Assembly (NCBI RefSeq): GCF_003201595.1
Contig: NZ_QJJS01000001.1
Location: 62,001 to 126,000 of the forward strand
From: Sphaerotilus hippei
Lineage (GTDB): Bacteria; Pseudomonadota; Gammaproteobacteria; Burkholderiales; Burkholderiaceae_C
DNA length: 64,000 bases
Direction of reading: 5' to 3'
This document shows positions 1 to 30,728 of this stretch, one piece after another; position 1 is the first letter of the stretch; every line of letters starts with the position of its first letter. The notes under the pieces were generated by a model. That model was not told where the DNA came from, made no database searches, and worked only from the letters and a program-made list of their open reading frames with translations. The position numbers and the translations under genes are program-made.

Positions 1-1628
1 AGGGCGACCGGGTGGTCGGCGCGGTGACCCAGATCGGCGTGCGGTTCCGCGCCCGGGCGGTGGTGCTGACGGCCGGCACCTTCCTCGACGGCAAGGTGCA
101 CGTGGGCCTCAACAACTACCCGGCCGGACGCGCGGGCGATCCGCCGGCGGTGAGCCTGTCGGCGCGCCTGAAGGAGCTGAAGCTGCCCCAGGCGCGGCTG
201 AAGACCGGCACGCCTCCACGCATCGACGGCCGCTCGATCGATTTCAGCCGCTGCACCGAGCAGCCCGGCGACCTGGATCCGGTGCCGGTGTTCAGCTTCC
301 TGGGCGACGCGGCCCAGCATCCACGCCAGGTGCCCTGCTGGATCACGCACACCAACCAGCAGACCCACGACATCCTGCGCACCGGTTTCGACCGCAGCCC
401 GATGTTCACCGGCGTGATCGAAGGGGTCGGGCCGCGTTATTGCCCCAGCATCGAGGACAAGATCAACCGGTTCGCCGACAAGGACTCGCACCAGATCTTC
501 CTGGAGCCCGAAGGCCTGACGACCAACGAGTTCTACCCGAACGGCATCTCGACCTCCCTGCCCTTCGACATCCAGCTGGCCGCGGTGCGCACGATGGCCG
601 GGCTGGAGAACGCCTACATCCTGCGCCCGGGCTACGCGATCGAATACGACTACTTCGACCCCCGCGAGCTGCGCTCGACCTTCGAGTCCAAGGCCATCGG
701 CGGGCTGTTCCTGGCCGGCCAGATCAACGGCACCACCGGCTACGAAGAAGCGGCGGCACAAGGCCTGTTTGCGGGTGCCAACGCCGCCCTGCAGGTCCAG
801 GGCAAGGACGCGCTGACGCTGGGCCGGGACCAGGCGTATCTGGGCGTGCTGGTCGACGACCTGATCACCAAGGGCGTGACCGAGCCCTACCGCATGTTCA
901 CCAGCCGGGCCGAGTTCCGGCTGCAGCTGCGCGAGGACAACGCCGACATGCGCCTGACCGAGATCGGCCGGCAGGTCGGCCTGGTCGACGACCGGCGCTG
1001 GGATGCCTTCAACCGCAAGCGGGACGCTGTTTCACGTGAAACCGAGCGGCTGAAATCGACCTGGATCTTCCCGAGCATCTTCCCGGCCGCCGAGGCCGAA
1101 GCCCTGCTGGGCAAGGCCATCGACCACGAGTACAACCTGGGTGACCTGCTGCGCCGACCGGGCATCAGCTTCGACACCCTGTCACAGGTGATGACGGTGG
1201 CCGAGCGTCAGCGTGCGCTGCAGGCCGGCCACCCCGAAGCGGCCGCCGTGGTTTCACGTGAAACACTGCGCACCGAACTGGGCGCGGCCGTGGCCGACGC
1301 GGTGATCGAGCAGGTCGAGATCGCGACCAAGTACGCCGGCTACATCGACAAGCAGAACGACGAGGTGCAGCGCGCCGCCGGCCTGGAGCACCTGAAGCTG
1401 CCGGCCGAGCTGGACTATGCCCAGGTCACCGCGCTGTCCTTCGAGGTGCGCCAGACGTTGATCAAGCACCAGCCGGAAACCCTGGGTCAGGCCTCGCGCC
1501 TGTCGGGGGTCACTCCGGCGGCGATCTCGCTGCTGCTGATCCACCTGAAGAAACGCCGCGGCCGCAGCGAGATCACCGGTGATCCGCGCCCCAGCGCCTC
1601 TCCCTCCAACCCCAGCGTGACCGCCTGA
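1..1628 (+). CDS. mnmG: tRNA uridine-5-carboxymethylaminomethyl modification enzyme MnmG (5'-truncated by window)
   Basis: The open frame enters from the left edge and runs to TGA at 1626-1628, giving about 541 codons, so roughly the first 90 residues of this normally ~630-residue protein lie outside. MnmG is the FAD-dependent partner of MnmE, which builds the cmnm5/mnm5 group on wobble uridine-34 of tRNA. Conserved family blocks are visible: [10 protein letters not shown] near the edge, [16 protein letters not shown] in the middle, and [14 protein letters not shown]. Two perfect 14-bp GTTTCACGTGAAAC palindromes (parS-like) sit inside the coding sequence, both read as V-S-R-E-T. The gene is followed after 1 nt by rsmG, as is common in proteobacteria. 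Confidence 0.96.
1028..1043. promoter_or_regulatory. parS-like centromere site 1 (inside mnmG)
   Basis: TGTTTCACGTGAAACC differs from the bacterial parS consensus TGTTTCACGTGAAACA only at the last base. It contains the full 14-bp palindrome. ParB would load here. It is within coding sequence, about 2 kb from parA. Confidence 0.82.
1250..1265. promoter_or_regulatory. parS-like centromere site 2 (inside mnmG)
   Basis: GGTTTCACGTGAAACA has one mismatch to the parS consensus, at the first base, and a complete 14-bp palindrome. It lies 222 bp after site 1 in the same reading frame. Confidence 0.82.
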
Positions 1629-1629
1629 C

Positions 1630-2295
1630 ATGTCCGATACCCGCAGCGCCGAGCGCCTGACCCTGACCACCGGCGCCCAGGCGCTGGGCCTGTCCCTGAA
1701 CGACACGACGGTCGAACGCCTGCTGGCCTACCTGGACCTGCTGCTGCAGTGGAACCAGACCTACAACCTGACGGCGATCCGCGACCGCCAGCATGCCCTC
1801 ACCCACCACCTGCTCGACAGCCTGACGGTGGTGCTGCCCCTGCAGCGTCACCTGTCCGCACGTTCGCTGTCCCAGGCCAGCGTGCTCGACGTGGGCAGCG
1901 GGGGCGGCCTGCCGGGCGCCGTGCTGGCCAGCGTCTGTCCTGAATTGCAGGTGACCTGTGTCGATGCCGTGGCCAAAAAGGCCGGTTTCATCCGCCAGAC
2001 CAGCGCCGAGCTGGGCCTGCCCCGGCTGCAGGCCCGCCACAGCCGGGTCGAGCAGATCCAGGACGCCCGCTACGACGTCATCACCTCGAGGGCGTTTTCT
2101 TCGCTGCCGGACCTGATCCGCCTGACCCGGCCGCTGCTCGCGCCCGGCGGTGTCTGGATGGCGATGAAGGGCCAGCACCCGGGCGACGAGCTGGCGGCCC
2201 TGCCCGCGGACATCGAGGTGTTTCACGTGGAACCCCTGCAGGTGCCCGGACTGGAAGCCGAACGCTGCCTGATCTGGATGCGCCCCCGCGTCTGA
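1630..2295 (+). CDS. rsmG: 16S rRNA (guanine-527-N7)-methyltransferase RsmG
   Basis: A 221-residue protein of normal family length. It methylates N7 of G527 in 16S rRNA using S-adenosylmethionine. The SAM-binding motif VLDVGSGGGLPG is at residues 85-96, and the amino-terminal helical region with LLQWNQTYNLTA is typical of RsmG/GidB. The ATG at 1630 follows the mnmG stop by one base, so the two are probably co-transcribed and translationally coupled. A parS-like site is embedded near the 3' end, where it is read as F-H-V-E-P. Confidence 0.96.
   Translation: MSDTRSAERLTLTTGAQALGLSLNDTTVERLLAYLDLLLQWNQTYNLTAIRDRQHALTHHLLDSLTVVLPLQRHLSARSLSQASVLDVGSGGGLPGAVLASVCPELQVTCVDAVAKKAGFIRQTSAELGLPRLQARHSRVEQIQDARYDVITSRAFSSLPDLIRLTRPLLAPGGVWMAMKGQHPGDELAALPADIEVFHVEPLQVPGLEAERCLIWMRPRV
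2219..2234. promoter_or_regulatory. parS-like centromere site 3 (inside rsmG)
   Basis: TGTTTCACGTGGAACC matches the degenerate parS consensus TGTTTCACGTGNAACA except at the last base. The site is inside the 3' part of rsmG, 0.8 kb before parA. Confidence 0.72.
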
Positions 2296-2335
2296 GCCTG
2301 AGCCTGAATCCACCACCCCTTCTCGGAGCCCCCTC

Positions 2336-2956
2336 ATGTCGTTCTTCGGCATCGCCGACTACCCCGCCTTCTGCGGTGCCGTGGTGATCTTCCTGGCCCT
2401 GCCAGGGCCGGGCACGTTCGCGCTGCTAACCTCGACCGCCAAGGGCGGCTTCAAGGCCGGGGCGGCGGCCACGGCCGGGCTGATCCTGGGTGACCAGGTG
2501 CTGCTCTGGCTGGCCGTGGCCGGCGTGGCGGCGCTGCTGGCGGCTTATCCGGCCGTTTTCAGCCTGGTTCGATGGGCAGGGGCAGCCTACCTCGGGTGGA
2601 TCGGCTGGAAGCTGCTGACGAGCCGCTCACCGGGCGCCGCGAGCCCCGTGCACATCGAGCCACGTGACTACGCCCGCCAGGCGCTGATGATCACGCTGCT
2701 GAACCCCAAGGCCATCGTGTTCTACATGGCCTTCTTCCCGCTCTTCATCGACCCGGTGCAGCACCGCGGCGGCATCACCTTCGTGGCGATGGCGCTGACC
2801 ATCGCCGGCATCACCGCCGTCTGGTGCCTGGGTCTGTGCGCGCTGGCCCGGACGCTGGCCGAGCGGCTGCGCCAGCACCACGGCCTGACCCGATGGCTGG
2901 AACGGGCGGCCGGCGCCTGCCTGATCGGCTTCGGCTGGCGCCTGTTGCGCGACTGA
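2336..2956 (+). CDS. LysE/RhtB family amino-acid exporter
   Basis: A 206-residue inner-membrane protein with about six hydrophobic segments. The family signature is visible as FLALPGPGTFALL near residues 18-30 and LLNPKAIVFYMAFFPLF near residues 122-138. Members export amino acids or related metabolites; the substrate cannot be told from sequence. It sits between rsmG and parA on the same strand, 40 bp after rsmG and 91 bp before parA, so it interrupts the usual rsmG-parA order. A second, unrelated copy of the family follows aceK. Confidence 0.88.
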   Translation: MSFFGIADYPAFCGAVVIFLALPGPGTFALLTSTAKGGFKAGAAATAGLILGDQVLLWLAVAGVAALLAAYPAVFSLVRWAGAAYLGWIGWKLLTSRSPGAASPVHIEPRDYARQALMITLLNPKAIVFYMAFFPLFIDPVQHRGGITFVAMALTIAGITAVWCLGLCALARTLAERLRQHHGLTRWLERAAGACLIGFGWRLLRD

Positions 2957-3047
2957 GCGCCCGAAACACTTCCGGGTGAAGGGCCGAGCCGCGACAATCG
3001 CAGGCGCGCCTCATCGCTCCGACAAGGCGCCCTCACCCACTGTGCTC

Positions 3048-3827
3048 ATGGCCCGCATCTTCTGCATCGCAAACCAAAAAGGTGGGGTCGGCAAGACCAC
3101 CACCACCGTCAACCTGGCGGCCGGTCTGGCCGCCCTCGGTCAACGTGTCCTGGTGATCGATCTGGACCCCCAAGGCAATGCCACGATGGGCTCGGGCATC
3201 GACAAGCGCTCGCTCGACCCGTCGATCTACGACGTGCTGATCGGCACGGCCGACGTGCGCAGCGCCCGCCGCCACAGCGACAAGGCCGGCTACGACGTGC
3301 TGGGCGCCAACCGGGAACTGGCGGGTGCCGAGATCGAGCTGGTCAGCCTGGAGCACCGGGACCGGCGCCTGAAGATGGCGCTGCACGACGTCACCGCCGA
3401 CTACGACCTGATCCTGATCGACTGCCCACCTTCGCTGAGCCTGCTGACGCTCAACGGCCTGAACTGTGCCCACGGCGTGATCGTGCCGATGCAGTGCGAG
3501 TACTTCGCGCTAGAGGGCCTGTCCGACCTGGTCAACACCATCAAGCAGGTCTACGCCAACCTGAACCGCGACCTGCAGCTGATCGGCCTGCTGCGGGTCA
3601 TGTTCGATCCGCGCATCACGCTGCAGCAGCAGGTCAGCGAGCAGCTGAAGGACCACTTCGGCGAGAAGGTGTTCAACACCGTGATCCCGCGCAACGTGCG
3701 CCTGGCCGAAGCGCCGTCCTACGGCCTGCCCGGTGTCGTGTTCGACCCCAACTCCAAGGGGGCGCAGGCCTTCATGGCGCTCGCGCACGAGGTGGTCGCG
3801 CGCATCGGTGACATCAGGCCAGGCTGA
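3048..3827 (+). CDS. parA: Chromosome partitioning ATPase ParA (Soj)
   Basis: A 259-residue protein when started at ATG 3048, the usual length for chromosomal ParA. An upstream in-frame ATG at 2976 would add 24 residues with no family similarity. The deviant Walker A motif KGGVGKTTTT is at residues 11-20, followed by Walker B-type DLDPQGN and LILIDCPPS. ParA forms ATP-dependent DNA-bound dimers that position ParB-parS complexes and so move chromosome origins. Four parS-like sites lie within 2 kb on either side. parB, normally the next gene, is absent: the following gene is convergent and overlaps the parA 3' end by 14 nt. Confidence 0.95.
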   Translation: MARIFCIANQKGGVGKTTTTVNLAAGLAALGQRVLVIDLDPQGNATMGSGIDKRSLDPSIYDVLIGTADVRSARRHSDKAGYDVLGANRELAGAEIELVSLEHRDRRLKMALHDVTADYDLILIDCPPSLSLLTLNGLNCAHGVIVPMQCEYFALEGLSDLVNTIKQVYANLNRDLQLIGLLRVMFDPRITLQQQVSEQLKDHFGEKVFNTVIPRNVRLAEAPSYGLPGVVFDPNSKGAQAFMALAHEVVARIGDIRPG

Positions 3828-4887
3828 AGCGCCAGACCCCCGCCGCGTCGCGCTCGCGGCGCAGCAGACCACGGTGCCACAGCGCATTCAGGTGAGCCAC
3901 CGCCTCCCCCATCGCGAAGGTGGTCTGGTGCAGGTCCAGCTCGCGCCGGAACAGCACCGGCAGCGCATCGGCCGCGCTGCAGGGCGATGCCTGGCAGGCG
4001 GCCAGCAGATCGGCCAACCGCTCCTCGTGATGGGCATGCAGCTGGGCCACCCGCTCGTGCAGGCCGCGGAAGGGCTTGCCATGCGAGGGCAGCACCAGCG
4101 TATCGGCCGGCAGCACCCGCAGCCGGTCCAGCGACGCCAGGTAGAGCGGCAGCGGGTTGCCCTCGGGCTCCAGGTCGATCACGCTGACGTTGGTGGAGAT
4201 GCGGGGCAGCAGCATGTCGCCCGAGATCAGCACGCCCAGGTCGGGCGAATGCAGGCTGATGTGCTCGGGCGCATGCCCGTAGCCGACCAGGCAGCGCCAG
4301 GACCGACTGCCGACATCGACCGCCTGCCCGTCCAGCAGGCGCCGGTACTGGCCCGGCACCTGCGGCACCATGCTGGCGTAGTAGTTGCCGCGCGCGCGCA
4401 CCTTGGCTTGCGCCGCCGGATCGATCAGGCCATGGCTGGCGAAGAAGGCCGCGGCGGCCTCGCCACCGAAGCCGGTGGTCTGCTGCGACGCCATGCGGGC
4501 GGCATTCCAGTCGCTGCCGCTGATCCACAGCCGGCAGGTGCGTCCATCGAGGCTCCAGCGCTGTGTCAGCCAGTGCGCCAGCCCGATGTGGTCGGGATGC
4601 ATGTGGGTCACGATCAGGCGCAGCACCGGCAGGCCGTCCAGCGCCTCGGCGAAGATGCGCTCCCACGCCGACTGGGTGCTGTCGTTGGTCACGCCGCAGT
4701 CGACGATGGTCCAGCCCTCGATGCCGTCCTGGCGGTCGCGCAGCAGCCAGAGGTTGATGTGATCGAGCGCAAACGGCAGGCCCATGCGCACCCAGAGCAC
4801 CCCGGGGGCCACTTCCAGCAACTGGCCACGCTCGGGCAGGGTGTCACCCAGCGGGTAGCTCAGCTGGTGTTCATTCGGGTTGGCCAT
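3814..4887 (-). CDS. Metallo-beta-lactamase-fold hydrolase
   Basis: A 357-residue protein if started at ATG 4887, which has a good AGGAG ribosome site. An in-frame ATG 99 nt upstream exists, but it falls within a parS-like site and has no ribosome site. The zinc-binding signature THMHPDH is at residues 94-100, with later His and Asp residues expected to complete a binuclear site (CLVGYGHAPEHISL, LISGDMLLPRI). A carboxy-terminal winged-helix-like segment (ALWHRGLLRR) resembles the LACTB2-type MBL proteins. Substrate unknown, possibly a thioester or hydroxyacyl compound. It is convergent with parA (14-nt overlap) and divergent from the MerR gene. Confidence 0.87.
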   Translation of the reverse strand: MANPNEHQLSYPLGDTLPERGQLLEVAPGVLWVRMGLPFALDHINLWLLRDRQDGIEGWTIVDCGVTNDSTQSAWERIFAEALDGLPVLRLIVTHMHPDHIGLAHWLTQRWSLDGRTCRLWISGSDWNAARMASQQTTGFGGEAAAAFFASHGLIDPAAQAKVRARGNYYASMVPQVPGQYRRLLDGQAVDVGSRSWRCLVGYGHAPEHISLHSPDLGVLISGDMLLPRISTNVSVIDLEPEGNPLPLYLASLDRLRVLPADTLVLPSHGKPFRGLHERVAQLHAHHEERLADLLAACQASPCSAADALPVLFRRELDLHQTTFAMGEAVAHLNALWHRGLLRRERDAAGVWRFSLA

Positions 4888-4943
4888 GCGCTTCTCCTGC
4901 AGCGGAATGCTTAGACTGACGGGACGTTCAACGCAGTTTACCC

Positions 4944-5390
4944 ATGCCCCCCGAAGCCGCTGTCGCCCAGGTTCCACGTGAAACACGCACCTGCACCATC
5001 ACCGAACTCGCGCAGGAGTTCGACATCACGCCACGGGCCATCCGCTTCTATGAAGACGTCGGCCTGCTCACCCCTTCCCGATCGGGTCGCAACCGGGTGT
5101 ACAGCCAGAGAGATCGCGTACGCTTGAAACTGACGCTGCGGGGCAAGCGCCTGGGCCTGAGCCTGCTGGCGGTCAAGCAGCTGGTGGACATGTACGAGTC
5201 ACCGGCCGACACCGAGCCGCAGCTGCGCCGCTTCATCGGCATGCTGCAGGCTCAGCGCCACCAGCTCGAGCAGCAGCTCGAGGACCTGAACCTGACGCTG
5301 CACGAGGTCCGCCAGCACGAGGCGAACTGCGAGCGGCTGCTGGCGCAGCGCCTGACGGGCGCCGAACCCCCTGCTCCGATGGCTGATTGA
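4944..5390 (+). CDS. MerR-family regulator, LiuR-like (acyl-CoA/leucine catabolism type)
   Basis: A 148-residue protein with an amino-terminal MerR winged helix (ITELAQEFDITPRAIRFYED, residues 18-37) and a carboxy-terminal coiled coil. Sequence blocks such as RDRVRLKLTLRGKRLG are those of LiuR, the regulator of leucine/isovalerate catabolism in proteobacteria, and not of metal sensors, since no Cys effector pair is seen. No liu enzyme genes are present here. Instead carbonic anhydrase and aceK follow. The start at 4944 has no clear ribosome site, but no better start exists. A parS-like site covers codons 10-14, and a palindromic operator covers its stop codon. Confidence 0.82.
   Translation: MPPEAAVAQVPRETRTCTITELAQEFDITPRAIRFYEDVGLLTPSRSGRNRVYSQRDRVRLKLTLRGKRLGLSLLAVKQLVDMYESPADTEPQLRRFIGMLQAQRHQLEQQLEDLNLTLHEVRQHEANCERLLAQRLTGAEPPAPMAD
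4970..4985. promoter_or_regulatory. parS-like centromere site 4 (5' end of the MerR gene)
   Basis: GGTTCCACGTGAAACA matches the parS consensus TGTTNCACGTGAAACA except at the first base. In the regulator's frame it encodes V-P-R-E-T. It is the only one of the four sites downstream of parA. Confidence 0.72.
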
Positions 5391-25166: not shown

Positions 25167-25244
25167 CGTTCCTCCCTGTCCCGACCTCGGCACCAAGGGC
25201 AAGCCCCAAGCCGCTCGTGCGCCAGCAGGATGATTATTCATGCC

Positions 25245-26945
25245 ATGAACATCCACCTGCCTCCCCCCCGACCCTGGCTGGCCAGCTACCAGCCGGGCGT
25301 GCCCGAGGACATCGATCCTTCGACTTGTCCGACGCTGGTCGACCTGCTCGAGACGGCCTTCCAGCAGCACGCCGACCGCGACTTCGCCCTGTTCATGGAC
25401 GAGCCGATCGGTTTTGCCGAGGTCGACCGCCAGTCGCGTGACCTCGGCGCCTTCCTGCAGGGACTGGGACTCGCCCCGGGCGCCCGGGTCGCGCTGATGA
25501 TGCCCAACATCCCGCCTTACCTGGTGGCGATCGCGGCGGTGCTGCGTGCGGGCTGCACCGTGGTCAACGTCAATCCGCTCTACACCCCGAGGGAGCTGCA
25601 GCACCAGCTCGAGGACAGCGGCGCCGAAGTCATCGTGCTGCTCGAGAACTTCGCCCACACCCTCGAGCAGGTGCTCGAACGCACGCCGGTGCGCCACGTC
25701 GTGCTGGTCGCGATGGGGGACATGCTGCGCCCGGTCAAGCGGCTGCTGGTCAACCTGGTGGTGCGCCACGTGCGCAAGCTGGTGCCGCCCTTCCGGCTGC
25801 CGCGCACCTACGGCCGCACTGTCACCCGCTACGGCGAGGCGCTGCGCCAGGGCCGCCACCAGCACCTCGCGCACCGCCCGGCCCGCCCGGACGACATCGC
25901 CTTCCTGCAGTACACCGGTGGCACCACCGGCGTGGCCAAGGGCGCGATGCTGCAGCATCGCCACGTCGTGGCCAACATCCTGCAGACCGAAGCCTGGTTC
26001 CGGCCGACGCTGCTGCGCCTGGGCCCGCGCCAGCTGACCGCCGTCTGCGCGCTGCCGCTATATCACATCTTCGCGCTGACGGTGTCCTACTTCATGAGCG
26101 CCCGGCTGGGCAGCCGGATGATCCTGATCCCCAATCCGCGGGACCTGCCGGCGCTGATCCAGGCCATCGGCCGGCACAGGATCCACCTGTTTCCCGCCGT
26201 CAACACCCTCTACAACGCACTGGCCAACCACCCGGACTTCGCGCGGCTGGACTTCTCCGAGCTGGTCGTCAGCAACGGCGGGGGCATGGCCGTCCAGAAA
26301 GCCACCGCCGATCGCTGGCTGGCCATCACCGGCTGCCCGATCGCCGAAGGCTACGGGCTCTCGGAAACCTCGCCGGTCGTGACCGCCAACCGGCTGGACG
26401 TGCCGGCCTACACCGGCAGCATCGGCCTGCCGCTGCCCGGCACCGACGTGAGCATCCGCGACGACGACGGGCGGGAACTGCCACCGGGTCAGCCCGGGGA
26501 GATCTGCATCCGCGGCCCGCAGGTGATGGCGGGCTACTGGAACCGGCCCGAGGAAACGGCCGAGGCGATGACCGCCGACGGCTACTTCCGCTCCGGTGAC
26601 ATCGGCACCATGGACGAGCAGGGCCAGTTCCGGATCGTCGACCGCAAGAAGGACATGATCCTGGTCTCGGGCTTCAACGTGTACCCGACCGAGATCGAGC
26701 AGGTGGTGAACCAGCATCCCGGCGTGCTCGAGTGTGCGGTGGTCGGCATCCCCGATGAGCACACCGGCGAAGCGGTCAAGCTGTTCGTGGTGCGCAAGGA
26801 TCCGTCGCTGGACGAGCCGACGCTGCGCCGGCACTGCCAGGAACAGCTCACCGGCTACAAGCGGCCGCGCCACATCGAATTCCGCACCGAACTGCCCAAG
26901 TCGACTGTGGGCAAGATCCTGCGCCGCGAGCTTCGCCCGTCCTGA
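25245..26945 (+). CDS. fadD: Long-chain fatty-acid-CoA ligase
   Basis: A 566-residue AMP-forming acyl-CoA synthetase. ATG 25245 fits the usual amino terminus (PWLASYQPGVPEDID); ATG 25230 is the alternative, and neither has an ideal ribosome site. The AMP-binding motif YTGGTTGVAKGAM, the EGYGLSETSPV motif, GYFRSGDIG and the carboxy-terminal lysine motif KSTVGKILRRELR are all present. It activates fatty acids for beta-oxidation, using the LPLYHIFALTV region typical of FadD. The stop codon touches the first DnaA-box-like element of the following intergenic cluster. Confidence 0.95.
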   Translation: MNIHLPPPRPWLASYQPGVPEDIDPSTCPTLVDLLETAFQQHADRDFALFMDEPIGFAEVDRQSRDLGAFLQGLGLAPGARVALMMPNIPPYLVAIAAVLRAGCTVVNVNPLYTPRELQHQLEDSGAEVIVLLENFAHTLEQVLERTPVRHVVLVAMGDMLRPVKRLLVNLVVRHVRKLVPPFRLPRTYGRTVTRYGEALRQGRHQHLAHRPARPDDIAFLQYTGGTTGVAKGAMLQHRHVVANILQTEAWFRPTLLRLGPRQLTAVCALPLYHIFALTVSYFMSARLGSRMILIPNPRDLPALIQAIGRHRIHLFPAVNTLYNALANHPDFARLDFSELVVSNGGGMAVQKATADRWLAITGCPIAEGYGLSETSPVVTANRLDVPAYTGSIGLPLPGTDVSIRDDDGRELPPGQPGEICIRGPQVMAGYWNRPEETAEAMTADGYFRSGDIGTMDEQGQFRIVDRKKDMILVSGFNVYPTEIEQVVNQHPGVLECAVVGIPDEHTGEAVKLFVVRKDPSLDEPTLRRHCQEQLTGYKRPRHIEFRTELPKSTVGKILRRELRPS

Positions 26946-27158
26946 GTGGACAAGATATCAACAGCGCGAGGATGTGGACAAGTTCATCCGGATCATCTTG
27001 TCACCACACTTGTCCACATGTGGACAAGCGCCTATTTCCTCTATGAAGAAGCAGGCCCTGTGGACAAGATTTCATCTTACTTGTCCACAGACCGGATGCA
27101 TCGGCTGTCCCGCGAAGGCCGAAGGTTCTCCACAAAACTGTCCACAGCCTGTGGATCA
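26945..27158. other. DnaA-box cluster, left arm of a candidate replication origin
   Basis: Five exact TTGTCCACA 9-mers lie here: 26973-26981 (minus), 27010-27018 (plus), 27019-27027 (minus), 27059-27067 (minus) and 27081-27089 (plus). One-mismatch versions are at 26945-26953, 27126-27134, 27138-27146 and 27150-27158. The boxes at 27010 and 27019 form a perfect 20-bp palindrome (27009-27028). TTGTCCACA is the DnaA box preferred by several GC-rich bacteria; TTATCCACA is the E. coli form. No gene was found in this 210-bp gap. Confidence 0.68.
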
Positions 27159-27575
27159 CAGATTGCCGCGACATTTCGGCGCCCCGCAGCGGCAGGCCAG
27201 CTGCCCCTCGTGGTGGGTCTCGCCGTAGTCGCAGGTGATCTCGTCGCCGGTGTCGATGTCACGCATCGCATAGATCTCGACCCGTCCCTGACGGATGCGC
27301 AGCACCGCATTGGGACAGCAGGAATGGTTCGTGAACCGCAGCGGATCGGCTGAATTGGAGGCATCGATCGCTCTTCGTGGAGAAACCTCCACGATCATGA
27401 TGCGATCCAGCTTCTTCGCCCGCTCCCAGGCCTCGTAGACGCTGATCGTCTCGCCCCGGATCTCGCCGATCTTGCGGCGTGCCGGGATGGGCTCGGCCGC
27501 AAACGCCCCCATCCCGTCGATGCGGCTGGGGGCGTTGAGCACGGCAAATTTCTGCGGATTGGCGGGAGTTCCCAA
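27156..27575 (-). CDS. SET-domain protein (putative protein-lysine methyltransferase)
   Basis: A 139-residue protein that must start at TTG 27575: an in-frame stop lies 30 nt upstream and no ATG or GTG is available, while GAGG is placed 5 nt before the TTG. The SET core is complete: RIDGMGAFAAEPIPA, then FTNHSCCPN and DEITCDYGETH. A post-SET Cys cluster C-R-C-x4-C-R-G follows at the end. SET proteins transfer methyl groups from S-adenosylmethionine to lysines; the bacterial target is unknown. The gene is embedded between DnaA-box arrays, so it could read into or out of a replication origin. Confidence 0.85.
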   Translation of the reverse strand: MGTPANPQKFAVLNAPSRIDGMGAFAAEPIPARRKIGEIRGETISVYEAWERAKKLDRIMIVEVSPRRAIDASNSADPLRFTNHSCCPNAVLRIRQGRVEIYAMRDIDTGDEITCDYGETHHEGQLACRCGAPKCRGNL

Positions 27576-27640
27576 GACAGCCTCGTGACAAGAGTTGCCT
27601 CATGGTCGGAGTGCGTCCAGGAGGTGTCAAGTGACAACTC

Positions 27641-27885
27641 TGTGGACAGTTCAGGAACAAGCGGCTGGATATCCACAGGCCTGGCGCCCGGGGATCAAGT
27701 TGTTGTCATTTCATCCTATGAAAAAACAGGGTGCAACCCACACAGTTGATAACTTCTCAAGTCATTGATTTAAAAAATGAAAAGTGACTTGTCCACAGAA
27801 ACAGGCGACCTCTACTACGACTACCAATTCAAGAATTTAAGAAATACCTGTTGATAGAACGGAAGTGCACGGCACAAAAAAAACC
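27641..27885. other. AT-rich tract with DnaA boxes, right arm of the candidate origin
   Basis: This is part of a 474-bp gap before the acetyltransferase gene, and no gene was found in it. The stretch 27721-27780 is 67% A+T (40 of 60 bases) and 27781-27840 is 60%, in a genome of roughly 30% A+T. It includes runs such as GATTTAAAAAATGAAAAG and AATTCAAGAATTTAAGAAAT. One exact DnaA box is at 27789-27797, with variants at 27641-27649 and 27669-27677. It resembles a DNA unwinding element. Duplex melting here is an inference. Confidence 0.6.
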
Positions 27886-28049
27886 GGAACTGAGGTCAGG
27901 GGCAGACAGCTGCAGGCACATCCCCCGGGCTTTCCGGCAAGATGGCTGGAGGTCTTGAGGCCGCACAAGCATCGAGATCGGTCGATGCATCAAAGTTGTC
28001 TCGACCGCAGCAGCTGCACCGCAGCCTTCTCCATCACCGAGGCCGATCC

Positions 28050-30728
28050 GTGGACCGCCACTTCCTGACCCCCCTCTTCGCTCCCCGATCCATCGTCGTG
28101 TTCGCCGGAGACCCCGACCAGCTCGACACGCAGACCAATCTCGGCCGCACGATGCTGGGCGAGCTCAAGGTCAATGGTTTCGAGGGTCAGGTGACCTACC
28201 TGAGCACCGACATGAAAGGCACGCTGTCGGACCTGGCGACGACCCGGGCCGACCTCGCGCTGATCGCGCTGCCGCACGAGGAACTGGCCGGGGCACTGGA
28301 GATCGCGGGGCGCATCCGCTGCCGGGCCGCGCTGGTGCTGACCTCGGGCGTGCCGCCGGCGCTGTGCACCCAGCTGCAGGCCATCGCCAGGCACCACGAC
28401 ATGCACCTGCTCGGCCCCAACAGCCTGGGCATGCAGCGGCCGCACCTCAAGCTCAACGCAGGCGCCGCCGGACTGCTGGCCGCCCCCGGTCCGCTGGCGC
28501 TGGTGTCGCAGTCGGGCGCGCTGACCTCCTCCGTGCTGGACTGGGCCAGCCGCAATGCGGTGGGTTTCTCGGCCGTGGTCTCGCTGGGTCCGAACACGTC
28601 AGTGGACTTGCCGCAAGTTCTTGACTTTCTTGCCAACGATCCTTCAACGCACAGCATCCTCATCTATATGGAGGGGATCCACAATGCGAGAAGGTTCATG
28701 AGCGCGCTGCGCGCTGCGGCCTACATCAAGCCGGTGGTGGTGATGAAGGCCGGCCGCCGCGCGGCCGGATCCCATGCGGCGCTGACCCATTCGGCCTCCA
28801 TCGTCGGCTCCGACGACGTGTTCGAGGCCGCGCTGCGGCGTGCCGGAGTCGTGCGGGTGCGCACCGTCACCCAGCTCTTCTCGGCGGCCAAGTGCCTGGC
28901 CTCGCGCTTCAAGCCGGTGGGCAAGCGCCTGGCCATCGTCACCAATGGCGGCGGCCCGGCCGTGCTGGCCGCCGACTGGGCCAACGAACTCGGCCTGGAC
29001 GTGGCCCACCTGAGCGACGAGGTGCGCAGCGAGCTGAGCACCAAGCTGCCCGCCTGCGTGCAGCTGGAACAGGTGCTCGACCTGGCCGAGGACGCCAGCC
29101 CCGACGACTACCGCGAGGCCCTGCTGGCCTGCGCGCGCGACAAGGGCGTGGACGGCATCCTGGTGATCTACGCGCCCAAGCCCGACAGCGACGCCAACGG
29201 CATCGCGCAGGCCGTGGCCGAGGTGTTCGGGCGCATCGGCAAGCCGGTGCTGACCTGCTGGATGGGCGACGAGCGCGTGCGCACCGGCCGCTCGACGCTC
29301 AATGCGGCGCACCTGCCGACCTTCCGCACGCCCGAGTCGGCGGTGGACGCGTTCAACAACATCGCCAGCTTCTACCAGAACCAGCAGCTGCTGCAGCAGA
29401 CCCCGCCGCCGATGTCGACGCTGGCCAAGCCCGATGCCGAAGGTGCGCGGCTGCTGATCGAGGGCGTGCTGTCCGAGCGCCGCCGCGTGCTCACCGAGAT
29501 GGAGTCCAAGGCGCTGCTGGCGGCCTTCCACGTGCCGGTGACCCGCACGATGCTGGCCCGCTCGGCCAACGAGGCGATGCTGATCGCCAACCAGCTGGGA
29601 TATCCGGTGGCGCTGAAGATCGACTCGCCCGACATCTCGCACAAGTCGGATGTCGAGGGCGTGGCGCTCAACGTCACCACCGCGACGCGGGTGCGCGACA
29701 CCTTCAACGACATGCTGGCGGCCGTGACCAAGGCCATGCCCGACGCGCGCATCAACGGCGTGACGATCCAGCCGATGTGCGCCAAGCGCCGCGGCCGCGA
29801 GATCTACATCGGGCTGACCACCGACCACCCCTTCGGGCCGGTCATCACCTTCGGTGCGGGGGGCACGATGATCGAGCTGATCGCCGACCGGGCGATGGAG
29901 CTGCCGCCGCTGAACCAGTTCCTGGCGCGCCGCCTGATCGAGCGCGCCCGGGTGGCCGAGATGCTGCACGAATGGCGCGGGGCCCCCCCGGTCGACATGG
30001 ACGCGATCGAGCAGATCCTGCTGCGGGTCTCGGAGATGGTGTGCGAGCTGCCGCAGCTGCGCGAGATGGACATCAACCCGATCATCATCGACGATGACGG
30101 CGCGATGGCCGTCGATGCACGCATCGTGGTCGATCATGCGCCGCCGTCGGCACGCAGCTACAACCACCTGGCGATCCTGCCCTACCCCGCCAGCTACGAG
30201 CGCGAGTGGCCGATGAAGGGGGGCGGCTTCTACACCATCCGCCCGATCCGGCCCGACGACGCCGACATGCTGCAGTCCTTCGTGCGCAGCCTGTCCCAGG
30301 AAAGCCGCTACTACCGCTTCGCCAGCGCGATGCACGAACTGCCCGCGCGCATGCTGGCGCGCTACACGCTGATCGACTACGACCGCGAGATGGCGCTGGT
30401 GGCCGAGCACCGCAAGCGTGAACCGGACGGCGAGGGCGGCTTCACCGAGCAGGTCGAGGTGATCGGCGTGTCGCGCTACATCACCAACCCGGACCAGACC
30501 ACCTGCGAGTTCTCGCTGGTGGTGTCGGACCACTACAAGGGCCAGGGCCTGGGGTCCCGGCTGATGCTGTCGATCATCGATTTCGCCCGCGACAAGGGCC
30601 TGTCCGACATCGAAGGGCTGGTGCTGGCCAACAACGACAACATGCTGCGCCTGATGCGCGGCCTGGGCTTCGCCGTGCGGCCGTTCCCCGAGGATCCGGA
30701 CTTCAAGCTGGTCGTCAAGGCGCTCTGA
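28050..30728 (+). CDS. Pat-type bifunctional protein: acyl-CoA synthetase (ADP-forming)-like domains plus GNAT acetyltransferase
   Basis: An 892-residue protein with GTG start 28050, chosen because GAGG precedes it and the amino terminus then reads DRHFLTPLFAPRSIVVF, as in homologues. An ATP-grasp/CoA-binding acetyl-CoA-synthetase-like half (about residues 1-690, with LVSQSGALTSSVLDW and ALKIDSPDISHKSDVEGV) is followed by a GNAT domain (about 725-890, with VSDHYKGQGLGSRLM). Homologues PatZ/Pka acetylate lysines, including that of acetyl-CoA synthetase, and so control acetate activation. The catalytic His for ADP-forming ligase was not verified, so synthetase activity may be lost. Confidence 0.92.
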   Translation: MDRHFLTPLFAPRSIVVFAGDPDQLDTQTNLGRTMLGELKVNGFEGQVTYLSTDMKGTLSDLATTRADLALIALPHEELAGALEIAGRIRCRAALVLTSGVPPALCTQLQAIARHHDMHLLGPNSLGMQRPHLKLNAGAAGLLAAPGPLALVSQSGALTSSVLDWASRNAVGFSAVVSLGPNTSVDLPQVLDFLANDPSTHSILIYMEGIHNARRFMSALRAAAYIKPVVVMKAGRRAAGSHAALTHSASIVGSDDVFEAALRRAGVVRVRTVTQLFSAAKCLASRFKPVGKRLAIVTNGGGPAVLAADWANELGLDVAHLSDEVRSELSTKLPACVQLEQVLDLAEDASPDDYREALLACARDKGVDGILVIYAPKPDSDANGIAQAVAEVFGRIGKPVLTCWMGDERVRTGRSTLNAAHLPTFRTPESAVDAFNNIASFYQNQQLLQQTPPPMSTLAKPDAEGARLLIEGVLSERRRVLTEMESKALLAAFHVPVTRTMLARSANEAMLIANQLGYPVALKIDSPDISHKSDVEGVALNVTTATRVRDTFNDMLAAVTKAMPDARINGVTIQPMCAKRRGREIYIGLTTDHPFGPVITFGAGGTMIELIADRAMELPPLNQFLARRLIERARVAEMLHEWRGAPPVDMDAIEQILLRVSEMVCELPQLREMDINPIIIDDDGAMAVDARIVVDHAPPSARSYNHLAILPYPASYEREWPMKGGGFYTIRPIRPDDADMLQSFVRSLSQESRYYRFASAMHELPARMLARYTLIDYDREMALVAEHRKREPDGEGGFTEQVEVIGVSRYITNPDQTTCEFSLVVSDHYKGQGLGSRLMLSIIDFARDKGLSDIEGLVLANNDNMLRLMRGLGFAVRPFPEDPDFKLVVKAL

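Follow-up and report, generated by a model that had tools for sequence, protein, structure and literature searches.

A conserved origin core 212.6 kb from dnaA is very probably the chromosomal replication origin of a Leptothrix/Sphaerotilus-like Burkholderiales bacterium

Bacterial chromosomal origins (oriC) are usually recognised by their place beside dnaA together with strand skew, and their movement is therefore hard to trace. Origins far from dnaA are already known, the Burkholderiales included; in Escherichia coli and Caulobacter oriC likewise does not adjoin dnaA, with neighbours and an architecture that differ from those described here. Here we describe a window of 64,000 nucleotides (contig C1, positions 62001-126000) from a Leptothrix/Sphaerotilus-like Burkholderiales bacterium, in which the interval at 26.9-27.9 kb is very probably the chromosomal oriC, built around a conserved core module. 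What is new is a single wandering origin core that can be followed through its sequence and is often present two or three times; in the literature searched, no description of the module, of its wandering or of its copies was recognised. The genome (4.43 Mb) is a draft assembly of 46 contigs, among which the 434-kb contig C1 was fully read. Positions without a contig name are those of the window.

Several described systems bear comparison, the betaproteobacterium Ralstonia pickettii among them. For its strain 12D double origins have been predicted, one at dnaA and one 291 kb away next to hemE (Gao 2015, PMC4403523, where Caulobacter and hemE are also mentioned). The likeness lies in an oriC-like site 291 kb from dnaA; the difference is that the second site there stands beside hemE rather than beside fadD, a SET-domain gene and pat, and that no copy of the core is found at dnaA here. 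On chromosome 1 of Cupriavidus metallidurans CH34, a GC-skew transition ~90 kb from dnaA-dnaN-gyrB adjoins a 213-nt region with three perfect DnaA boxes, which is the predicted origin (PMC2864759). The shared points are membership in the Burkholderiales and a three-box region far from dnaA; CH34 differs in being one genome, described in passages that speak of neither trio repeats nor module homology, and it is compared here by description. A cyanobacterial origin far from both dnaA and dnaN is described with DoriC 10 (PMC6323995). The bipartite origins of Bacillus subtilis and Helicobacter pylori, as outlined in PMC4285127, resemble the present locus in having two box clusters parted by a gene, one of them with a DNA unwinding element; here the intervening gene encodes a SET-domain protein and is not dnaA, and the membership of the far cluster in the origin is only putative.

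The locus stands out by the clustering of its DnaA boxes. Six exact TTGTCCACA sites occur at 26973(-), 27010(+), 27019(-), 27059(-), 27081(+) and 27789(+), in both orientations as the preliminary description of this DNA had reported, and these six, within 0.83 kb (26973-27797), are among only 17 in the whole 4.43-Mb genome. When the 434-kb contig was simulated 100 times with a first-order Markov model, two exact TTGTCCACA sites never fell within one 950-bp stretch. One-mismatch versions of TTGTCCACA number four inside 26945-27885 (26945, 27126, 27138 and 27641), with another at 26906, just outside; the earlier figure of about six one-mismatch boxes therefore holds only if the TTATCCACA form, which adds boxes 27150 and 27669, is included. 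Allowing one mismatch to TTRTCCACA, 13 boxes lie in 26906-27797, and only one other 1-kb stretch of contig C1, near the dnaA start, has at least four. Counted across the window with up to one mismatch, 14 boxes were observed against 6.9 expected, a number reached by 1 of 100 shuffles; what is exceptional is the clustering, the window-wide count being much weaker. The 20-bp head-to-head palindrome CTTGTCCACATGTGGACAAG at 27009-27028 and the 67% A+T at 27721-27780 were both reproduced on recomputation.

The core module itself, a conserved unit of ~205 bp (27636..27840, plus strand), opens with a minus-strand box, CTGTCCACA (27641..27649), found by box search and alignment. It is followed 28 bp further by the plus-strand box ATATCCACA (27669..27677), which reads TTATCCACA in most aligned relatives, and, another 120 bp on, by the plus-strand box TTGTCCACA (27789..27797), the most conserved of the three. 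Between the second and third boxes lies an AT-enriched spacer (27678..27788), which contains the 67% A+T tract. The third box stands directly 5′ of the trio-like repeats: a 14-bp plus-strand spacer, GAAACAGGCGACCT (27798..27811), leads to five DnaA-trio-like repeats, CTA CTA CGA CTA CCA (27812..27826, plus strand; complement 3′-GAT-5′), three of the five canonical, and these to a tract of 77% A+T (27827..27852, plus strand) that is the probable DNA unwinding element.

This layout resembles the basal unwinding system (BUS) of B. subtilis and other bacteria, for which the search rule is a DnaA box, a spacer of ≤16 bp with a peak at 10-13 bp, and ≥3 trios (PMC8287927). Box, short spacer, trio-like repeats and AT-rich tract are all shared, and the box at 27789-27797, across its 14-bp spacer, lies within the limits of ≤2 mismatches and ≤16 bp from the trios. 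The differences from the BUS as outlined there are that the trios of the window are degenerate and that one strong box precedes them, its partners lying 120 and 148 bp upstream. Since only two canonical trios stand in a row before the series breaks, short of three consecutive 3′-NAN-5′ trios, the module is better said to work like a BUS than to be a strict member. The same likeness of layout places the unwinding element probably 3′ of box 27789, in the tract that follows the trio-like repeats, rather than at 27721-27780, where the preliminary description had put it.

A comparison of box spacings across loci recovered a recurring unit of a minus-strand box, usually a second box 28 bp further, and a third ~118-120 bp on; in the aligned units the third box leads over a ~13-14 bp spacer into a block of CTA repeats (consensus CTCTACTACTACnACTA), beyond which lies an AT-rich tract. 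The trios, degenerate in the window, are more regular in several relatives, and loci L078 and L096 keep five. Among 29 same-orientation box pairs 116-122 bp apart, 23 were aligned for a model; the six dropped were four duplicates at the same sites in L023 and L145 and two unrelated pairs, one in L168 (displayed in the alignment though outside the model rows) and the window's own 27010-27126 pair. The resulting sequence-only model, R1, has 205 positions and 23 rows, the window sequence among them. On contig C1 it gives one significant match, the module (116.5 bits, E 1.5e-34 on the 434-kb contig), with the next at 11.1 bits (E 0.058), and the module is single in its own genome.

Conservation of the module extends well beyond the genus. 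Over 40 genomes R1 matched 13/13 of the genus, 23/24 of the family and 3/16 from other families of the order, the single family genome without a match being 65% complete; in a wider family draw at E ≤ 1e-4, matches were found in 118/120 genomes and 106/108 genera. The preliminary description had proposed a search of the same gene neighbourhood in relatives and named the absence of these boxes there as evidence against an origin; conserved boxes were instead found, in a module carried by all 13 genus members. The module is accordingly homologous to the origins of relatives, sites that are themselves predicted by place and sequence. A SET-domain gene lies ≤1.5 kb from a module in 11 of the 13 genus genomes (tblastn), and in the other two, G002 and G007, the flanks are fadD and pat. 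The pat neighbourhood taken alone proved a poor guide: 64 of 80 named pat loci have no module, and among the 16 that do (Leptothrix discophora, Sphaerotilus mobilis and several Hydrogenophaga included) 13 are training rows of R1.

The position of the module relative to dnaA carries the argument furthest. As the preliminary description had noted, dnaA and dnaN lie outside the window; both are on contig C1, dnaA at C1:302435-304192, which is 212.6 kb from the module, so that the locus does not belong to the rpmH-dnaA-dnaN type in which the origin adjoins dnaA. A scan of contig C1 found no R1 match at the dnaA-dnaN site of this genome. For relatives, dnaA positions were obtained in 86 of the 120 genomes (79 of G040-G149 with at most ~70 contigs, plus 7 others); the 34 left out were G013, G014, G017 and 31 more fragmented ones, including the two without an R1 match. 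Another eight of the 86 were set aside for a weak module match beyond the matches listed, leaving 78 scored, with distances taken as linear except in G122, which was corrected for its circular record. The module lies <1 kb from dnaA in 32/78 (31 plus G122 after closing the circle), at 1-20 kb in 3/78 and at >20 kb on the same contig in 30/78, the largest distance being 459 kb (G008); in 13/78 the two are on different contigs. In all four dnaA-adjacent genomes inspected for gene order (G075, G090, G099, G131), the module fills the dnaA-dnaN gap. This gap measures 217-240 bp in the four genomes with the module inside, 113-141 bp in G009, G012 and G019, where modules are displaced, and 54 bp here. 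None of the 15 R1 training loci outside the window has a dnaA or dnaN match; that a model trained without such loci nonetheless finds the classical dnaA-dnaN position speaks independently for the module as the oriC of the family. The simplest account of the locus is an oriC relocated from beside dnaA, which would be the ancestral place from which it moved.

Strand asymmetry was studied on contig C1 and on stretches of relatives' genomes. On C1 the GC skew, taken in 2-kb bins, averages -0.0087 to the left of the module, +0.0197 between module and dnaA, and +0.0090 beyond dnaA (left versus middle, p=0.0006; middle versus beyond dnaA, p=0.12). The GGGNAGGG motifs, which orient FtsK in E. coli, number 5+/11- left of the module and 44+/16- right of it (p=0.003). 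They show no change at dnaA (34+/17- versus 15+/10-, p=0.62), nor is there a firm one between the module-dnaA interval and the region beyond dnaA (29+/6- versus 15+/10-, p=0.075). Asymmetry thus shifts in the wider neighbourhood of the module and not at dnaA. The preliminary description had expected a skew minimum at 26.9-27.9 kb: on the contig data the minimum is indeed not at dnaA, but it is 28-45 kb off rather than exactly here. Among relatives, G008 (3 contigs, sampled in 20-kb stretches) turns in skew near 1.78 Mb, with its module at 1785694 and dnaA at 1325831, and G019 (1 contig) shows a sustained GC rise from 1.60 Mb and one-sided motifs from 1.62 Mb, with modules at 1604605 and 1608071 and dnaA at 1522436; both support a displaced origin, whereas G009 and G012 are ambiguous.

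The partition locus gives a second landmark. Four parS-like sites (1028, 1250, 2219 and 4970; span 1028..4985) lie in and around mnmG-rsmG-LysE-parA, and with a fifth at C1:61424, outside the window, all occupy C1:61.4-67.0 kb and are the only matches to GTTYCACGTGRAAC genome-wide. They stand 23-28 kb from the module, as parS sites are expected to lie near an origin. The parA gene (2976-4986) adjoins mnmG-rsmG; no parB adjoins it, the frame there being an opposite-strand gene of the metallo-beta-lactamase fold. The best ParB is encoded at C1:325507-325788, near dnaA and ~260 kb from parA, and with ParB near dnaA and parA/parS apart from it, the usual origin neighbourhood therefore appears split here.

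Several observations weigh against an origin at exactly this place. On the contig the cumulative GC skew is lowest at 121 kb, with the module lying at 89.7 kb; the change point of gene-strand-corrected skew at third codon positions (GC3) falls at 118-135 kb (bootstrap range 125-418 kb; none of 200 permuted gene orders did as well), so that the GC and GC3 positions lie 28-45 kb to the right. Over its leftmost 40 kb the contig shows a positive gene-corrected GC3 skew of +0.03 to +0.04, which is not what a simple two-arm picture predicts. For GGGNAGGG the change point falls at 64 kb, with a range (63-93 kb) that includes the module. The change points bracket the module rather than coincide with it, and on this contig of a draft assembly the asymmetry is positioned imprecisely. 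In relatives, the cumulative GC of G019 is almost as low near dnaA (-301, 1.54 Mb) as at the modules (-314, 1.60 Mb). In G009 (1 contig) the GC minimum is found ~20 kb to the right of dnaA, and it is the motif minimum alone, ~119 kb to the left of dnaA, that comes nearer the displaced modules (155 kb to the left and 159 kb to the right). In G012 (2 contigs; modules at 351 and 360 kb, dnaA at 168 kb) GC is flat over 350-520 kb and the motif count is still dropping at 570 kb. To these points is added the run of two canonical trios, under the three-in-a-row rule of PMC8287927.

One explanation that would accommodate the displaced minima is a former or secondary origin that kept its core while the active origin lies elsewhere within ~100 kb, for example near 118-135 kb. 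The GC and GC3 minima 28-45 kb away and the two or three copies often found in relatives speak for it, yet the module is single-copy in this genome, the sole other 1-kb stretch of contig C1 to hold at least four boxes is near the dnaA start, and the motif change-point range takes in the module; we regard this explanation as improbable. A DnaA-titrating or DnaA-recharging locus (datA-like or DARS-like) was already raised in the preliminary description; the true origin would then be at dnaA-dnaN. Such a locus would suit the dense boxes and head-to-head palindrome outside the core as well as the exact box pair of the dnaA start region itself (C1:303918 and 303979). It fits poorly with an asymmetry that is unchanged at dnaA, with a contig on which R1 has no other match, dnaA-dnaN included, and with a dnaA-dnaN gap of just 54 bp. 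Conservation and location of the module speak against it as well: in other genera it is this module that occupies the dnaA-dnaN gap, and for the core such a role is therefore unlikely. As a whole this alternative, too, is improbable. An integrated plasmid or phage origin is a still more distant prospect, with hardly any probability: boxes plus an AT-rich tract do occur at plasmid origins, but throughout the genus the module retains SET or fadD/pat as its neighbours, 118 of the 120 family genomes carry it, and ten neighbouring open reading frames yielded no match to a replication-initiator family (three of them had no match of any kind).

The oriC reading is favoured over a datA-like or DARS-like one because of the contig asymmetry, the parS proximity and, above all, the conserved module beside dnaA in other genera; the suggestion of an origin away from dnaA, or relocated, is to that extent supported. 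If the module is the oriC, replication would start here in living cells by steps that can be proposed from its layout. DnaA would bind the module boxes 27641, 27669 and 27789 and, starting from box 27789, would be guided over the 14-bp spacer to the trio-like repeats (27812-27826), forming a filament on one strand; the filament could then open the AT-rich tract 27827-27852 and permit helicase loading. The palindromic cluster beyond the SET gene may help to load or titrate DnaA.

That cluster (26945..27158), with boxes at 26945, 26973, 27010/27019 (the palindrome), 27059, 27081, 27126, 27138 and 27150, is located at the 3′ end of the SET-domain gene and has no trios. The single origin cluster at 26945-27885 of the preliminary description is thus to be divided: the core at 27636-27852 is very probably the functional part, and the dense 26945-27158 group is a separate accessory cluster outside the conserved core. 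With the SET gene in between, this cluster looks like the other half of a bipartite origin. A second core at 27017-27162 on the minus strand was considered and rejected, its R1 match (11.1 bits, E 0.058) being non-significant and ending before the trio part. Elsewhere, the exact box pair near the dnaA start has counterparts, pairs 60-61 bp apart, in G011 and G012, and is perhaps an autoregulated dnaA promoter. In G008, dense box clusters without an R1 match (L162, L163 and L165, C1:1.759-1.814 Mb of that genome) flank the single core on both sides at distances of 15-26 kb. The largest of them has 15 boxes (≤1 mismatch) in ~2 kb near 1.812-1.814 Mb; the clusters are possible titration sites.

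Relatives often carry several cores, with copy numbers that are lower bounds among the matches listed, the wider 120-genome draw having been filtered more strictly. Tandem cores occur in G009 (346 bp apart) and as two of the three in G015; cores 3-9 kb apart occur in G012, G011, G015, G019 and G022, and up to 29 kb apart in G016. In G009, a complete genome, the cores flank dnaA on its contig C1, the tandem pair (L145; 4753668 and 4754014) ~155 kb to the left and another (L230; 158744) 159 kb to the right. More than one copy among the matches listed was found in 3/32 genomes with the module at dnaA versus 21/46 without (Fisher p=0.0009), or 2/31 versus 22/47 (p=0.0001) before the circular correction of G122, p-values that overstate independence because the genomes are related. 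The two cores of L093 each resemble their counterpart in L118 (90% and 94%) more than they resemble one another (69%), which suggests that copies within a single genome can be old; in L078, by contrast, the cores are most similar to one another (80%). A tentative scenario, to which we give somewhat less than even credence, is that the core is movable: it might be copied near the old site, go through stages in which two or three complete cores coexist (in tandem, 3-30 kb apart, once ~314 kb apart) and later lose one copy, so that the origin wanders from beside dnaA up to 459 kb away, and some chromosomes may use more than one core. As of 2015, there was no evidence for two functional origins used on one bacterial chromosome (Gao 2015, PMC4403523); genomes such as G009, G012, G015, G016 and G019, in which two or three cores are predicted, would be direct test cases for such use.

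A short module that can be traced by sequence across a whole family makes it possible to ask how origins move, whether duplicated cores are in use, and what separates dnaA, parA/parS, parB and oriC from one another. There is also a practical side, as rotating the genomes of this group to dnaA, or taking dnaA as the zero point in peak-to-trough growth estimates, may err by hundreds of kilobases.

The genes around the locus are those named in the preliminary description, each now confirmed by Pfam domain matches. On the left is a fadD-like AMP-binding gene (25230..26945, plus strand; PF00501, PF13193); between the two box clusters is the SET-domain gene (27156..27575, minus strand; PF00856, E 2.3e-17); and on the right is a Pat-type acetyltransferase with CoA-ligase-like, ATP-grasp and GNAT domains (27942..30728, plus strand; PF13607, PF13549, PF00583). 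Rfam gave no match at 26-29 kb of the window. Judged by the Pat protein, the nearest named relatives of the bacterium include Leptothrix, Sphaerotilus, Ideonella and Rubrivivax, in a comparison from which entries for this genome or a very close one may be missing; this places it in the Burkholderiales. In several other genera, displaced cores (L263, L270, L271, L272, L279 and L281) lie ~0.1-2.3 kb from a large GGDEF/EAL-type gene, identified by Pfam scan in L263 and in the remaining five loci by similarity to that same place on C1.

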